From Stieleria bergensis (lineage in GTDB: Bacteria; Planctomycetota; Planctomycetia; Pirellulales; Pirellulaceae): 64,000 nucleotides of DNA. Every line of letters begins with the position of its first letter. Within the stretch, counting starts at the first letter, position 1. The translations under genes and the position numbers were made by a program. Below are positions 10,110 to 16,081 of the stretch, one piece after another. The stretch spans positions 372,001-436,000 of the forward strand of contig CP036272.1 of NCBI GenBank assembly GCA_007745635.1, given 5' to 3'. Under the pieces are notes generated by a model. The model was given only the letters and a program-made list of their open reading frames with translations. It ran no database searches and was not told the DNA's origin.

Positions 10110-10403
10110 CTGGAGTCATGTTGCCGTGTTGTGTTGAAACGCGAATTGCGGAACTCATCCAGGGCGAATTGAGCATCTGCATGAGCATTTTGGTGGCGTT
10201 TCAATGCCATTTCATGCCCCGCCTTAGGGTTGTAGGTCCCGTTTAATTGTCACAACCGGTGAATCGCTACCTGTTCTCTAAACGAAGTGGCTTGCTTAGC
10301 TAGAGTTTTTTGACAGGTAGGTTTTCTGACATAGCTTTTTGGTGAGAGCGGGTCACGACGACCTGCTGCCGAGATCGGCTCAGGAAAACGAGCATTTGAT
10401 CTT

Positions 10404-10508
10404 GGACAGCCACCTCCAAAGAAAAAGGCAAACCGCTTGCAAAGGCGGGGCGCAAAGCCACGAGCCCAGTTGACAAATCATTTAAGTGAACTGGGTAGTC
10501 GGGCTGCC
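10404..10508 (+). promoter_or_regulatory. Candidate cyclic-di-GMP-I (GEMM-I) riboswitch upstream of flp
   Basis: The layout follows the GEMM-I consensus. A conserved GGCAAACC is followed by hairpin CCGCTT-GCAA-AGGCGG (about 10433-10448), six base pairs closed by a GNRA tetraloop. Next comes the conserved GGGCGCAAAGCC, close to the GGGACGCAAAGCC of the Vibrio Vc2 aptamer. A second hairpin with perfect arms CCCAGTT/AACTGGG spans about 10464-10494. An outer helix can form between cagcc (10407-10411) and ggctg (10502-10506). A second ggctg at 10540-10544 could compete for the same 5' arm. I infer that it senses c-di-GMP and controls the downstream leader ORF and flp; whether it turns them on or off is unknown. 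Confidence 0.85.
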
Positions 10509-10577
10509 TTCGGAAACTATCGAAGCTGATGTTATTGATCGGCTGCGTCAACCCACTCAAGGCACTATCAAGGAGAC

Positions 10578-10664
10578 ATGGCTGCTTCTCGTCCCGGGTA
10601 TCTATTCACGTTGAATCGACCCAAACTAAAATCGCGAAGGCAAAGCCTTCAACCGAGGAGATAA
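10578..10664 (+). CDS. 28-codon leader ORF before the Flp pilin gene
   Basis: A short frame begins ATG GCT GCT TCT with aaggag three nucleotides before it, the strongest Shine-Dalgarno in the region. The product starts MAASRPGYLF and ends in an Arg-rich tail (SRRQSLQPRR). Its TAA stop is 4 nt before the flp ATG, and the flp ribosome site gaggag lies inside it. Translation of this frame would run through the hairpin gaaggc-aaa-gccttc (about 10636-10650). It could therefore open the pilin start region or couple translation to it. No homology can be judged at this length; this is inferred from position and the ribosome site. Confidence 0.55.
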   Translation: MAASRPGYLFTLNRPKLKSRRQSLQPRR

Positions 10665-10668
10665 CACC

Positions 10669-10839
10669 ATGAAGAAGTTCGCAAAAAGCGTTGTTGAGTT
10701 TTTGAAAGAAGAAGATGGCCCAACCGCAGTTGAGTACGCCGTAATGCTGGCGTTGATCATCGTCGTTTGCTTGGGCACCATCACTCAGCTCGGAACCGCT
10801 GTCGAAGAAAACTTCGAAACAGTGACCACCGCTCTGTAA
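10669..10839 (+). CDS. flp: Flp/Fap-type pilin of the Tad pilus
   Basis: A 56-residue type IVb pilin, MKKFAKSVVEF onward. It has the prepilin cleavage context EEDG followed by PTAVEYAVMLALII, with Gly at -1, Glu at +5 and Tyr at +6, as in Flp pilins. A single hydrophobic helix follows and the tail is short, as in the family. The prepilin peptidase gene cpaA downstream should process it. The ribosome site is gaggag, 8 nt before the ATG. It is preceded by the riboswitch-like element and leader ORF and followed by two hairpin terminators, so the pilin mRNA is probably a separate, abundant transcript. Confidence 0.93.
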   Translation: MKKFAKSVVEFLKEEDGPTAVEYAVMLALIIVVCLGTITQLGTAVEENFETVTTAL

Positions 10840-10891: not shown

Positions 10892-10945
10892 ACTCGACTG
10901 ATCGGGCACCCTCAGGGGTTGTCCCGGTCACGTCGAGTTTTTTTA
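10892..10945 (+). terminator. Second intrinsic terminator after flp
   Basis: Perfect arms actcgac (10892-10898) and gtcgagt (10932-10938) enclose a further partly paired G/C-rich stretch and run into seven or more T residues. With the preceding hairpin it forms a double terminator separating flp from cpaA. Confidence 0.85.
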
Positions 10946-11136: not shown

Positions 11137-11703
11137 ATGATGGAAACACTCATTGAAGCCATTACCGAAAACTGGATCGTCTGGTTTGTCACCATTGTTC
11201 TGATCGTGGCTGCCGTCATCGACGGTGCCATTTTGAAAGTGCCTAACTGGCTGACATTCCCCTTCATCATGACCGGCTGGGTTCACTGGACGATGCAAGA
11301 AGGCATCTCTGGACTGGGCTGGAGTCTGTGGGGAACTTTCGTTGGCATGATGCTGTTGCTCGTCCTGCGAAACGTGGGCGGCATGGGAGCTGGCGACGTG
11401 AAGCTGCTGGCCGGCGTGGGTGCCTGGCTTGGTGCGGTGATCACATTATGGGCCTTTGCGGCCACAGCCATTGTCGGCGGCATCATGGCTGCCGTGATGA
11501 TCTGGCGCAGCCCCAACCCCAGTAAGCACCTGCAAATGGGGATCAAGATCCTGCAGGAATGGAAAACTGTCCGGAAGCCTTCCGAGCTGTCCAAGATCGC
11601 TCGGGAACGAAAATCCAGCATGTACCTCTTGCCGTACGGAATTCCCATGGCAATCGGTTCGATCGCATACTTCGCTTATGACGGCATGTTGATCGCATGG
11701 TGA
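11137..11703 (+). CDS. cpaA: Prepilin peptidase, CpaA/TadV type (A24)
   Basis: Inner-membrane aspartic peptidase that cleaves the leader of Flp prepilin. It has 188 residues and several membrane helices. The two catalytic aspartates are D29 in AVIDG and D87 in GGMGAGDVKLLAG, the GxGD motif of type IV prepilin peptidases. The N-terminal methyltransferase domain of PilD is absent, as usual for TadV. A soluble stretch of about 40 residues lies between the last helices. It starts about 190 nt after the double terminator and is the first of four similarly oriented pilus genes. Confidence 0.92.
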   Translation: MMETLIEAITENWIVWFVTIVLIVAAVIDGAILKVPNWLTFPFIMTGWVHWTMQEGISGLGWSLWGTFVGMMLLLVLRNVGGMGAGDVKLLAGVGAWLGAVITLWAFAATAIVGGIMAAVMIWRSPNPSKHLQMGIKILQEWKTVRKPSELSKIARERKSSMYLLPYGIPMAIGSIAYFAYDGMLIAW

Positions 11704-11945
11704 GCAATCACCAGTGGGGGGCACGATCACCAGGGCTGGTAAGCCCGATCGTCATGTGGGGCGATGCTGTTTCGGCAGCTTTTGAGTCAGCAAGTGAGAG
11801 CCGAGTGGAGGCTTGCGCAGCTTGCGTAAACTTTACCGCATTTGCCGATCTGTTTGTAGAGCCTCATGTTTGCAGGCCGATGTAATGCGAGGGTAATTGC
11901 TATCCTCGCACCAAAGCTTTTTACTCCTCCCCTAATTTAGTGATG

Positions 11946-11960
11946 CTGGAGAAACTCCAG
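11946..11960 (+). promoter_or_regulatory. Small hairpin over the cpaB ribosome-binding region
   Basis: Perfect inverted repeat ctggag-aaa-ctccag ending 7 nt before the cpaB ATG. The only Shine-Dalgarno-like sequence there (tggag) is in the 5' arm, so the hairpin could hide it. Functional meaning is inferred. Confidence 0.4.
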
Positions 11961-11967
11961 AACTGTC

Positions 11968-12984
11968 ATGCGAAACAAAACACTCGTTCTACTACTCGCT
12001 GGGATTTGCGGCACGGTCGCTGCTGTCGGGATCGGCCAATGGATGCAGGCCAACACAGGCTCTCCGAAGATGGAGACGGCTGAGATTTTGGTCATCACCA
12101 AGGCGATCAACGCAGAAGACAAGATCACAGCCGAACAGCTAAGACTAGAAGTCTGGCCAAAAGACAAAGTGCCCAAAGGGGCGTCGGCTGACTTGAAGGA
12201 TTTCGAAGGCCGCTATGCGAAAATGCCTTTGTTTCCTGGTGAAGCCCTGGTGGATGTGAAACTGATGGACAGCGTCGAGGACGACGTGGTGCCAGATGGA
12301 TACACCGTGTTGAACCTTCCGGTTGGCAACGGAGCTGCCGTGAACTTGCTGGAGCCAGGGAAAAAAGTGACGGTCACTGGATTCTTTGAGCGAGGCGATC
12401 AATTCCTGGAAACCTTCTCTGTTGACGTGCTTCGCGGGATTCGCATCTACAGCATCGACGGCATCAAGAAGTTCACCGAGGAGACGCCTCGTCCCAAATC
12501 ACCGCGAAACATTCAGCTGCTGATTCGCAAAGCCGACCAAACGGCTTTCGAGTTCGCCAAGCGTAGCGGAGACATTGAATTGGTCTTGGGGAGCACCGGG
12601 ACGGTTGAGGAAGATTTGCCGGCTGAGGAAGTCAGCACACTGGCACAGAAATTTCTAGCCAAGATTGAAGAACAACAAGAACGCGCAAGGGCTGCCCAAA
12701 CCGTCGAGGCTGCAACAACGTCGGAGCCAGTAGTAGCGGTTGCCCCGGTCGCCACAATTGAGACACCGCGAAAAGTGTTCGTGATGGAGAAGTATGTAAA
12801 CGGTCGGGTGGAACGCTACGAGTTTGCCGAAGATGGAACTATGCAGAAATTGGGTGAGACGGAAGCGGAGTCCACGCAACCGTCTTCAGACGATTCAAAT
12901 GCTGGAACAGCGCCCGGCAACACCGACGCACTGATCCAAGGAGCGGAAAGTCCTTTCTTTATTCCTTCTGGTGAAGGTAAATAA
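11968..12984 (+). CDS. cpaB: Flp pilus assembly protein CpaB/RcpC
   Basis: A 338-residue periplasmic pilus assembly factor anchored by an N-terminal signal or helix (TLVLLLAGICGTVAAVGIGQWM). An SAF-type domain follows: AEILVITKAINAEDKITAEQLRLEVWP, then PLFPGEALVDVKL, as in CpaB/RcpC. The RcpC-like region carries AVNLLEPGKKVTVTGFF and lies at about residues 120-215. After residue 225 the sequence is low-complexity and probably disordered or specific to this lineage. CpaB is thought to help the secretin or gate the pore. It lies in order after cpaA and before the secretin gene. Confidence 0.9.
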   Translation: MRNKTLVLLLAGICGTVAAVGIGQWMQANTGSPKMETAEILVITKAINAEDKITAEQLRLEVWPKDKVPKGASADLKDFEGRYAKMPLFPGEALVDVKLMDSVEDDVVPDGYTVLNLPVGNGAAVNLLEPGKKVTVTGFFERGDQFLETFSVDVLRGIRIYSIDGIKKFTEETPRPKSPRNIQLLIRKADQTAFEFAKRSGDIELVLGSTGTVEEDLPAEEVSTLAQKFLAKIEEQQERARAAQTVEAATTSEPVVAVAPVATIETPRKVFVMEKYVNGRVERYEFAEDGTMQKLGETEAESTQPSSDDSNAGTAPGNTDALIQGAESPFFIPSGEGK

Positions 12985-13208
12985 GGCAAAGACTCGCCTG
13001 CTTCAACGAAAACAATGTGACTGCTCTGATTCAAAAATCTTTCGTCAAACAACGGATCTGTTTGGCGATTGAGGTTGAATGAGACGCAAAAGGAAAACTC
13101 TTACTTACCAACGTTACTCGCAAAGAACAAATACTTTTGGCATCGCGTTTGATACCAAGAGGAATTTCGGCACCCGTTCGAAAGTTTGTTCCGCAAGGAT
13201 GCCCTGCG

Positions 13209-14762
13209 ATGGAAATGTTATGTACCGCGGTTCGCCCCGCCGCCCTCCGATTCGCGGCATGCGTGATGGTAGCCAGTTTGGCTGCTTTCGCGACTGCTCA
13301 GAATCCAGGTTCTAATCAACAGCAGATGGTTGCTGCCAGTGCTACAGCTGCACAACGAACCATCACCCAGCCTCTAGAAAGCATGGAATTGCTGGTCAAG
13401 TCCAGCACCATTTTGAAGCTGGAAAATCCCATTCCGCGATTCCAGGTTCACAATGAGGAAATCCTGGGTGCCAACCCAATTTCTCAGAACGAACTTCAGG
13501 TGTTCGCCAAAATTCCTGGAACCACGCAGATCAACCTTTGGGATACTGAAGACAATCAGTACACCGTTGATGTCACCGTGATTGCAGACGCTCGTGAAGT
13601 CGAAGGGATTCTGGTTTCCCAGCTTCCTTATGCGGCTTTGAAGGTCACACCAATCAACTCGTCCGCGGTTGTCAATGGTTACGTCACCAGTGCCGATGAC
13701 GTTGACTTGGCGATCGCAATTGTCGAGCGATTCTATCCAACCGTTGTCAACAACATTCGCGTTGTTGGCGTCCAACAGGTTCTGCTGCACACACGAATCA
13801 TGGAAGTTTCACGCACGAAACTTCGTGAACTGGGCATCGATATGACGTGGCAGAGCGGCTCGACCTTACTTGAAAGCTTGCCTTCTGGCATCACGAGTCC
13901 GACCAACGTTTTCCAAGGTACGGAATTCGAAGCATTAATCCGCGCGATGCGTCAGCAGGACTTGATCAAGTTCCTGGCTGAACCCACTGTTGTTGCCACC
14001 CATGGTCGTCCAGCACGATTCATTGTTGGTGGTTCGGTACCTTACATCGTTCCATCGGGCAATGGTAACGTGCAGGTAGAGTACCAAGAATATGGTACAT
14101 CCGTCGACTTCCTACCCTTCGTCATTGGGCCTGGCCGAGTGCGTTTGGAAGTTCGCCCCGAAGTCACCGAGCCAGATGAAGCTCGTTCGATCGTTGCTAA
14201 CAACATCAACGTTACCGCTTTCGTTAGCCGTTATGTTGACACCGCCGTGGAGCTGCAAGCTGGTCAAACCTTCGCGATTGCTGGTTTGTTGCAGAGCCGA
14301 ACCGAGGCTGAGCAGCGGATGACACCGTTCTTCGGTGAACTGCCTGTGATGGGTGCTTTGTTCCGTCGCGTTCGCGAACGTCGCAATGACTTGGAACTGT
14401 TGATCACCGTGACGCCTGAATTGGTTGACGCGATGGATCCTCATCAAGTTCCAATCGGAGCTCCCGGGTTGCACTCTACTAACCCGAACGACAAGGACAT
14501 GTACTGGAACGGTCACATCGAAGTTCCAACGTTATTGGGTGGCGATGGCTGCTCCATCGAGAACGGTTTGTACCCTTCAGCTGGAACGCAGCAGTTGCAC
14601 GAGAACGTGATGCAGCACGGTGCTGATATGCCACGCGGTAGCTTGATGAACCAGGGTCCCAAAGCTGGAGCCGAGCGGATTCCAGCCGGTGCCGTGGTTC
14701 CTAGCAGCGAGCCAACCGTGGTTGGAAAAGGGGTCACAATCGTCACTCCAGAGACGCCGTAG
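13209..14762 (+). CDS. cpaC: Outer-membrane secretin of the Tad pilus (CpaC/RcpA)
   Basis: The pore for Flp pili. The 517-residue product has a signal peptide (RFAACVMVASLAAFATAQ) and an N-terminal pilus/BON-like region (PRFQVHNEEILGANPISQNELQVFAKIPGTTQINLWD). The secretin domain runs from about residue 180, starting QQVLLHTRIMEVSRTKLRELGI, and includes FLAEPTVVATHGRPARFIVGG and ELLITVTPELVDAM, the typical C-terminal secretin motif. The frame can be opened further upstream by a TTG at 13137, but ATG 13209 puts the signal peptide near the start. The C-terminal 80 residues are low complexity. No pilotin gene was seen nearby. Confidence 0.9.
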   Translation: MEMLCTAVRPAALRFAACVMVASLAAFATAQNPGSNQQQMVAASATAAQRTITQPLESMELLVKSSTILKLENPIPRFQVHNEEILGANPISQNELQVFAKIPGTTQINLWDTEDNQYTVDVTVIADAREVEGILVSQLPYAALKVTPINSSAVVNGYVTSADDVDLAIAIVERFYPTVVNNIRVVGVQQVLLHTRIMEVSRTKLRELGIDMTWQSGSTLLESLPSGITSPTNVFQGTEFEALIRAMRQQDLIKFLAEPTVVATHGRPARFIVGGSVPYIVPSGNGNVQVEYQEYGTSVDFLPFVIGPGRVRLEVRPEVTEPDEARSIVANNINVTAFVSRYVDTAVELQAGQTFAIAGLLQSRTEAEQRMTPFFGELPVMGALFRRVRERRNDLELLITVTPELVDAMDPHQVPIGAPGLHSTNPNDKDMYWNGHIEVPTLLGGDGCSIENGLYPSAGTQQLHENVMQHGADMPRGSLMNQGPKAGAERIPAGAVVPSSEPTVVGKGVTIVTPETP

Positions 14763-14869
14763 CCTGCAAAAGGTCGCAAAGTAAGCCGCACACGATGATG
14801 GGCAGTCGTGTGCGGCATCCATGGTTTACAGGGGTATCACAAGACAATGTTTGACTGGATGATCACACC

Positions 14870-16081
14870 ATGACAAATGTCCTTCGATTGACATTGGTAG
14901 ACCCTGATGACGATAGTCGCTCAGAACTGAAATCAAAACTGCTTAGCCTGGATTCGGTTTGGTTGGAAGCGGACTGTTCCCGCTATGAGTTCTTTCCAGA
15001 AATCATGGAACAGACCACTCCCGACGTGGCCGTGATCACATTGGATAGTGATTTTGATAAAGCCACGCGACTGATCGAGCGTTGTGTGTCACTGTGTCCC
15101 GACGCAGTCATTCTTGCCGCCAGCGAAAGCACAGATGGGCATCTGATTTTGCAGGCGATGAGAGCTGGAGCCAGAGAGTTCCTAACCTTGCCACTTTCCG
15201 CCGAAGACCTGACGGCCACAATCAGTCGGGTTGCCAGCCAAAAGTTTGGTGGCGGAGAGGGTGCCGCGCGAGGCTGCGAAGTCATTGCCTGTCTTGGAGC
15301 CACTGGGGGCGTGGGCACGACCAGTGCAGCGGTCAATCTTGGCTGCATTCTTGCCTCAAGGCCAGGGAATACCGTGGCACTGATCGACTTGGATCTGGCC
15401 CTGGGTGATGCTGATGTGTTCTTGGATGCCATTCCAGATTACACGCTCGCCGATATGGTGCAAAACATCAGTCGGCTTGACATCCAATTGCTCAAGCAAT
15501 CATTGACCAAGCACAGCAGCGGTTTGTATCTGCTGCCCAGACCGGTCGAACTGCAAGACACTTCAATGGTTGACGAAGGGTCGCTACGCAAGGTCGTGGG
15601 GCTAATGAAAGCCTCGTTCACTCACCTGGTGATCGATGTTTCCAAGTACTACAGCGCTGTCGACATGGCGGCCATCGATATGGCGACTCGAATCCTCTTG
15701 GTCACCCAACTGGATTTGCCATGCTTGCGAAACGTCGTCCGATTGATGATGAACTTCGAAGAGTACGAAGGCCTGCAAGACAAAGTCAACATCGTCGTCA
15801 ACCGCGCTGGACTAGAGTCCGGCCAAATCAGCCTCAAGAAGGCGAAAGAAACCATCGGCCGAGAGGTCTTTGCACTGTTGCCGAATGACTATCGAACGAT
15901 GGTCGAGGTTCGTAATAATGGCGTTCCGTTGATCAAGCAGGCACCACGTGCTCCGCTCACGCAAGCTTATGTTGATCTAGCCGACAAGATCTCAGCTCCA
16001 CCGCCAGAAGAAGCCGGCGAGGAAGCCAAGAAGGGCGGCGAAAGCAAGTGGATCAAGTTCTTCGGCGGTTCGAAGTCATAG
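14870..16081 (+). CDS. cpaE: CpaE/TadZ-like ParA-type ATPase of the Tad pilus
   Basis: A 403-residue protein thought to place the Tad pilus machine at the cell pole. The N-terminal 125 residues are a receiver-like fold (VDPDDDSR, VAVITLDSD, AMRAGAREFLTLPL) without a clear phosphorylation site. A MinD/ParA domain follows. Its deviant P-loop GATGGVGTTSAA (143-154) has Thr where the catalytic Lys of the classical loop would be, as seen in many CpaE proteins. ALIDLDLALGDADVF is the following switch region. The last 20 residues are Lys/Glu-rich. It is the last gene of the locus: no tadA ATPase or tadB/C gene follows. Confidence 0.88.
   Translation: MTNVLRLTLVDPDDDSRSELKSKLLSLDSVWLEADCSRYEFFPEIMEQTTPDVAVITLDSDFDKATRLIERCVSLCPDAVILAASESTDGHLILQAMRAGAREFLTLPLSAEDLTATISRVASQKFGGGEGAARGCEVIACLGATGGVGTTSAAVNLGCILASRPGNTVALIDLDLALGDADVFLDAIPDYTLADMVQNISRLDIQLLKQSLTKHSSGLYLLPRPVELQDTSMVDEGSLRKVVGLMKASFTHLVIDVSKYYSAVDMAAIDMATRILLVTQLDLPCLRNVVRLMMNFEEYEGLQDKVNIVVNRAGLESGQISLKKAKETIGREVFALLPNDYRTMVEVRNNGVPLIKQAPRAPLTQAYVDLADKISAPPPEEAGEEAKKGGESKWIKFFGGSKS

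Follow-up and report, generated by a model that had tools for sequence, protein, structure and literature searches.

A probable c-di-GMP-I riboswitch in the long structured leader of an Flp pilin gene of Stieleria bergensis

The window, by which we mean the whole stretch of 64,000 nucleotides that was analysed, contains a gene for an Flp/Fap pilin (flp) that is followed on the same strand by further genes of the Tad type (Table 1). The pilin that the initial annotation had placed about 160 nt downstream of a candidate riboswitch is indeed a Pfam match, and the actual distance between the end of the aptamer (10512) and the start of flp (10669) is 156 nt. The aptamer thus lies in the 5′ leader of flp, with a promoter pattern further upstream. 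On the basis of this pattern at 10310-10337, transcription is estimated to start near 10344. Of 70 flp leaders, 67 have the same pattern, TTGAC[AT]-N16-TA, in their upstream region, as compared with one of 70 shuffled upstream regions, and its -35 element sits 73 to 210 nt before G20 of the aptamer. Around the -10 element, many relatives carry TGACATAGGTTTC; over window positions 10310-10344 and the flp loci of the family, this seems to be conserved to a degree uncommon in promoters, so that a regulator or sigma factor of its own may be involved.

Table 1. Features of the flp locus in the window. A1 and A2 are the two leader alignments described in the text.
Feature	Position	Strand	Details and basis
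Predicted flp promoter	10310-10337	+	-35 TTGACA 10310-10315, 16-nt spacer, -10 TAGCTT 10332-10337; motif pattern
Leader hairpin A	10347-10367	+	Double-change pairs: 4 in A1, 3 in A2; folding
Leader stem B	10369-10405	+	Double-change pairs: 2 in A1, 3 in A2 (outer 5 pairs counted)
P0, 5′ strand	10407-10417	+	CAGCCA 10407-10412, CUCC 10414-10417 (last 3 nt common to lower P1); swapped-partner tests, window MFE
c-di-GMP-I aptamer	10418-10512	+	RF03167 66.9 bits, RF01051 64.7 bits
P0, 3′ strand	10572-10584	+	GGAG 10572-10575, UGGCUG 10579-10584; conserved block, pair counts, MFE
CUUCUCG, predicted partner of flp Shine-Dalgarno	10585-10591	+	MFE of 10344-10690
Leader hairpin C, ATTCA-CGT-TGAAT	10604-10616	+	Double-change pairs: 1 in A1, 4 in A2
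Leader hairpin D, GAAGGC-AAA-GCCTTC	10636-10650	+	6/7 pairs double-change in A2; left out of A1 count
flp Shine-Dalgarno region, CGAGGAG	10654-10660	+	Ends 8 nt before ATG
flp, Flp/Fap pilin, 56 aa	10669-10839	+	Including stop (coding 10669-10836); PF04964, E 5.3e-10
Intrinsic terminator after flp	10892-10944	+	Hairpin 10892-10938 and U-run; folding
Prepilin peptidase	11137-11703	+	Pfam
CpaB/RcpC-like	11968-12984	+	Pfam: RcpC below cutoff, SAF domain above
Secretin	13137-14762	+	Pfam
TadZ-like	14870-16081	+	Pfam

Downstream of flp, a 66-nt stretch folds with -31.8 kcal/mol (z -5.7), and seven consecutive U come directly after it. Since this strong terminator ends the unit after flp, the other Tad-type genes at 11137-16081 are probably off the riboswitch transcript, and flp probably has a transcript of its own, separate from theirs except by read-through. 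The initial annotation had assigned the RNA to one pilin gene and not to the whole Tad locus. Locally the terminator bears this out, whereas a second copy in the same genome and the other genes found behind the RNA in relatives show that control is not confined to a pilin. This second copy (L002, C1:705993-706128, - strand) scored 42 bits with RF01051, which is above the cutoff, and 37.9 bits with RF03167, which is below it, and precedes a frame without a Pfam match and a CheW-domain protein. The genome also has a second Flp-like frame, below the Pfam cutoff (L161, C1:1420609-1420743, - strand), and no c-di-GMP-I match was listed at that place. GGDEF domains were detected in five of its reading frames (six matches, two of them in one frame).

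In a cmscan of the 64-kb window at gathering cutoffs, the sole Rfam match listed was c-di-GMP-I-GGC (RF03167) at 10418-10512 on the + strand, the program having omitted a single overlapping hit from that clan. Its score of 66.9 bits exceeds the cutoff of 59 (E 1.3e-13), and the alignment covered model positions 1-80 of 80. The c-di-GMP-I model (GEMM-I, RF01051) scored 64.7 bits at the same site against a gathering cutoff of 35; the covariance search that had been suggested as a check on the initial GEMM-I identification was therefore significant, and the sequence strings quoted for that identification are all present in the window. The ligand contacts of the Vc2 aptamer are G20, A47 and C92 (PMC4744006), and A47 is described as conserved and sandwiched by stacking between both guanines (PMC9049102). 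The window has CGCAAA where the RF03167 consensus has CGCGAA, and hence A instead of G at position 47. Read off the RF03167 alignment, in a numbering that we take to be that of Vc2, G20 corresponds to 10427, A47 to 10454 and C92 to 10507, so that all three RF01051 contacts are present. The name GGC presumably refers to positions 20, 47 and 92.

A47 was also found in 153 of 159 fetched family loci by a script match of the aptamer core, the remaining six having no script match, and in all 30 of the best loci from a phylum-wide search. An extra pattern match with C at position 47, located 0.4 kb past the aptamer of L116, was put down to chance. The exact G47 pattern occurred in one of 241 family genomes, which had no listed RF03167 match, compared with two genomes for a reversed control. 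Because A47 prevails in the window, family and phylum loci, and the G47 pattern does not rise above its control, we file the RNA under c-di-GMP-I; the GGC assignment was rejected in spite of a score above the RF03167 cutoff, as the G47 of the model consensus is absent. Similarly rejected was a 3′,3′-cGAMP riboswitch (GEMM-Ib), which has A at position 20, where the window aptamer has G (10427). As judged from sequence and covariance scores, 10418-10512 is a c-di-GMP-I aptamer. The canonical A47 in the window and in 153 of the 159 family loci makes c-di-GMP its likely ligand, and the pocket suggests that c-di-GMP tunes this leader directly.

The RNA is widespread among relatives. It was detected in all 14 genomes of the genus (45 matches), in 128 of 241 family genomes at E up to 0.001 (107 above cutoff), and, with RF01051, in 167 of 393 genomes drawn from the phylum. 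Motif scripts were used to sort 151 family copies, namely the 159 loci minus the six without a matched core and minus L003 and L004, which repeat L001 and L002 (L071, a repeat of L035, is included). Of these copies, 73 precede flp, 36 precede TadE/TadG-like or EEDWEL-type genes (the Tad class), 12 precede response-regulator or CheW genes (the chemosensory class), and 30 fall in no class. Among ten representative proteins, Pfam recognised CheW in two, a receiver domain in one, TadE in three and a TadG-type domain in one; three had no match, and both EEDWEL proteins were among these three. At L043, L008 and similar loci, the EEDWEL-motif protein is encoded behind the riboswitch and directly before a TadG-type gene, as confirmed by Pfam for L008.

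In addition, the best 80 of 524 flp relatives, chosen regardless of the RNA, were subjected to covariance scans. A c-di-GMP-I match was present in 31 of the 80 loci, 27 of them having it no more than about 375 nt before the matched flp, while the stretches fetched for the other 49 contained none, at least five of these having less than 400 nt upstream. The search upstream of flp in related genomes that the initial annotation had recommended thus recovered the association in a part of the loci. At the Stieleria tagensis locus L197 (1501-1668 and 2282-2381), the riboswitch follows the matched flp at a distance of about 0.6 kb; in L035, which covers the same place, it precedes another flp copy, so that of the two adjacent pilin genes only one seems to have the riboswitch. 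At L005 and L008 there is a pair of c-di-GMP-I aptamer cores, one on either strand, with about 0.9 kb between them. Genomes of family f43 (e.g. G277, G329 and G373) gave at least ten matches each in the phylum search and may hold more copies, since ten is the number of candidates scored; two f43 copies (L170, L187) precede, by eye, prepilin-type N-termini.

The leader as a whole is structured. The region 10344-10690 folds with a z-score of -4.9, and the segment 10344-10412 with a z-score of -4.3. Two alignments were used for the assessment of its helices, A1 consisting of 12 flp leaders of the genus and A2 of 12 flp leaders of other genera. In A1, 93.7% of the cells of 33 pairs were paired, as compared with at most 49.2% for a slid structure, and in A2 95.1% of the cells of 41 pairs were paired, as compared with at most 38.4%; these comparisons favour the actual structures over the slid ones, since the former were derived, with RNAalifold and by eye, from these very sequences. 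Double changes numbered 10 pairs in A1 against 4.0 in shuffles (0/500), a count that leaves out the misaligned inner P0 stem, inner B, distal P3, P1 and D, and 66 cells in A2 against 21.2 in shuffles (0/500). Taken together, helices A, B, C, D and P0 are conserved and show covariation, with D counted in A2 only. Of the 12 genus sequences, 11 have mostly pyrimidines at the CUUCUCG site, which is missing in L046. An upstream reading frame starting at the GGAG block was considered and rejected: the ATG of the window is replaced by GTG in nine of the 12 genus leaders, by GCG in L032 and by GAG in L046, and the A2 genera have no such start.

P0 appears to be a long-range helix, which joins roughly 20 nt directly 5′ of P1 to a GGAG/GGCUG block lying about 60 nt past the aptamer. 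This block, GGAGAC-N-GGCTGC (10572-10585), is conserved in 11 of 12 genus leaders, L046 deviating in the second half. A second GGCTG at 10541-10545, which had been put forward as a possible competitor that could form the switch, turned out not to be conserved in the 12-sequence genus alignment; the conserved partner is the GGCTG at 10580-10584. The pairing was tested by comparing duplex energies of cognate and swapped partners. With 21 Flp-diverse representatives, cognate partners averaged -21.81 and swapped partners -19.81 (z -3.4, 14/20000 permutations), and the cognate partner beat its own swapped average in 14 of 21 rows, whereas three control flanks from further upstream and a shuffled flank gave z-scores between -0.7 and 1.2. 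An earlier run with 42 representatives yielded 0/20000, with 52 of 70 individual leaders beating their own swapped average. When the classes were tested separately, the signal was found for flp (45 representatives, z -5.5, 0/10000), Tad (26 representatives, z -3.7, 3/10000) and chemosensory copies (9 representatives, z -2.6, 33/10000), and control flanks were not significant (z between -1.2 and 1.9). Together these data support P0 pairing by coevolution of the two strands.

For non-flp copies, in which start codons were called by script (41 loci with a confident start), the P0 5′ flank was matched to the Shine-Dalgarno (SD) sequence and start of the copy's own gene (30 representatives, z -3.7, 7/20000), while a coding-sequence window (z -0.04) and a control flank (z 0.2) gave no signal; a window upstream of the SD (z -5.1, 0/20000) was unfit as a control, as it contains the P1 3′ strand in many loci. 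In L006, L030, L052, L059 and L074, the P0 partner comprises, by eye, the SD and start of the gene under control. The flank of flp copies did not significantly match flp's own SD (47 representatives, z -1.5, 1473/20000). The best P0 partner lies at most 25 nt from C93 in 12 of 73 flp, 4 of 36 Tad and one of 12 chemosensory loci, and could there be a longer P1. Within P0, double changes are confined to A2, where they affect 2 of 12 pairs. In eight leaders that we call R. baltica-like, after one genome of the group that we take to be R. baltica SH1, the RNAalifold brackets, as we read them, assign the P0 5′ strand a closer partner segment in place of the block; a duplex search favours the block in five of the eight (L130, L142, L152, L153, L155).

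The direction of the switch was addressed by comparing free folds with folds in which P1 was enforced, both for 70 flp leaders (the 73 minus L125, L135 and L159, which lack a confident start) and for 36 of the 41 non-flp loci with a confident start. Upon enforcement of P1 in the flp leaders, SD accessibility went up in 9 and down in 10, start accessibility went up in 12 and down in 9, and P0 went up in 19 and down in 11. In the non-flp leaders, P0-SD pairing, in rounded values, increased by more than 0.1 in 15, decreased in 4 and was steady in 17, and SD accessibility rose in 8 and fell in 7. An earlier run on 69 flp leaders, with a constraint that apparently forced bases to be unpaired, gave 5 up and 2 down for the SD and 9 up and 3 down for the start, and is superseded by the comparison of the 70. 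In the window, the unconstrained fold contains P0 and lacks P1, and enforcing P1 lowered flp start accessibility from 0.65 to 0.34. In a 385-nt construct of the window, P0 dropped from 0.94 to 0.09, which looks like competition, whereas in the 347-nt leader, for which the state without P1 was set by a constraint apparently forcing bases unpaired, P0 was mostly retained together with P1; the fold model is therefore sensitive to length. Pairing of the 5′ flank with the P1 strand into an alternative hairpin was clear in a few loci only, with mean z-scores of -0.58 (Tad), -0.36 (chemosensory) and -0.15 (flp) as compared with -0.01, -0.21 and -0.21 for control segments. Since the SD and start shifts go both ways, and P0 in the window falls alongside start accessibility, the modelled folds indicate no consistent ON or OFF direction, and the test of the 70 flp leaders leaves the two nearly balanced.

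The explanation that we favour, and regard as probable when taken as a whole, is a c-di-GMP-I riboswitch in a structured flp leader of about 325 nt, with the aptamer enclosed by P0, P0 serving as a translational mask and a lean towards OFF. A masking role of P0 is most likely because its partner in the TadE/TadG-type and chemosensory copies is often the SD and start region of the gene; that P0 has no translational role in flp we consider unlikely. In flp, the masked strand would be SD-like and would adjoin the pyrimidine run CUUCUCG, which could pair with the true flp SD. Binding of c-di-GMP would lock P1, P0 and its surroundings would be rearranged so that the flp start is less free, and translation of Flp would consequently fall. 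Since the overlap of P0 and P1 has a median of 3 nt across the 70 leaders, P1 may either compete with P0 or stack on it. That flp is switched OFF is a tentative proposal, which we place just short of evenly poised; the drop in start accessibility of the window and the excess of P0-SD gains over losses in the non-flp leaders speak for it.

Conceivably, the same riboswitch is ON, with P0 masking the SD-like block in the absence of ligand and the ligand-locked P1 taking the shared 5′ nucleotides and opening P0. A sessile life with high c-di-GMP is expected to favour pili, and the overlap of P0 and P1, the unconstrained window fold and the loss of P0 in the 385-nt construct all fit this mechanism. 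It is less readily reconciled with the 347-nt leader, in which the upper P1 pairs are compatible with P0, or with the predominance of P0 gains upon P1 enforcement in both the flp and the non-flp sets. In addition, the class I switches confirmed in Clostridioides difficile are reported to have worked as OFF switches, though RNA-seq showed an increase for one gene downstream of a class I RNA (PMC6200980). We therefore regard ON as somewhat doubtful; the analogy with C. difficile gives OFF a slight lean over ON, little better than even. A c-di-GMP-I-GGC variant with another ligand, for which the slightly higher RF03167 score could be taken to speak, appears very improbable in view of A47 throughout the family loci with a matched core and of a G47 pattern that is rarer than its reversed control.

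The leader might also be mainly a protein-responsive or mRNA-stability structure, for instance one in which a GGA-binding regulator occupies the GGAG block, with the aptamer as one of several inputs. Hairpins A to D covary, though they lie outside the aptamer, and the GGAG block is conserved in the A2 genera without being a start codon there, but the P0 coevolution is confined to the flank adjacent to the aptamer and absent further upstream, and we think it improbable that such a structure dominates. Transcription termination within the leader is a mechanism by which many c-di-GMP-I switches act, and in six R. baltica-like leaders (L130, L137, L142, L152, L153, L155) a GC-rich hairpin followed by UUUUU is visible by eye just before the flp SD. 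Against this, hairpin D of the window has no U-run, and a consensus terminator scan listed no + strand terminator-like site between the aptamer and flp in the window, nor on the + strand of L152; as the strong terminator after flp was not listed either, the scan is weak evidence. Altogether, we rate termination in the leader as quite improbable.

Returning to the masked c-di-GMP-I riboswitch, we give an even chance to a broader proposal: in Pirellulaceae-type planctomycetes, a surface-attachment regulon comprising the Flp pilin, TadE/TadG-type pseudopilins and a response-regulator/CheW cluster would be under c-di-GMP-I riboswitches with a mask outside the aptamer, in which a 5′ anti-SD strand pairs across the aptamer with a 3′ SD region. 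Among the papers listed by literature searches that covered few subscription papers, no title or abstract opening reported the switch in planctomycetes, a link to flp or an enclosing anti-SD helix, which is weak evidence of novelty, and among the matches listed for planctomycetes and c-di-GMP no title concerned a c-di-GMP regulon tied to Tad pili or surface sensing. If true, the proposal would provide planctomycetes with a directly testable regulon in which c-di-GMP is linked to Tad pili and to the sensing of surfaces, and the enclosing anti-SD helix would add an expression-platform layout to a very well known riboswitch class.

Compared with known systems, the aptamer is of a known kind, and the expression platform looks to have a new layout. 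The window RNA shares the secondary structure and the pocket residues G20, A47 and C92 with the c-di-GMP-I riboswitch (RF01051; residues from PMC4744006). It differs in being set in a leader of about 325 nt and apparently enclosed by a long-range helix, the 5′ strand of which lies before the aptamer. The model that scores best, c-di-GMP-I-GGC (RF03167), has a consensus G47 that is missing in the window, which indicates that this Rfam label can fall on RNAs with an ordinary pocket. The c-di-GMP-I riboswitch Bc1 of Bacillus thuringiensis likewise combines a class I aptamer with a long expression platform; that platform is reported to have two terminator sequences (PMC11218506), whereas the scan listed none in the window leader. 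Finally, Cdi-2-4 of C. difficile also precedes a major pilin gene, pilA1, but it has a class II aptamer, controls a type IV pilin and acts through transcription read-through as an ON switch (PMC6200980).
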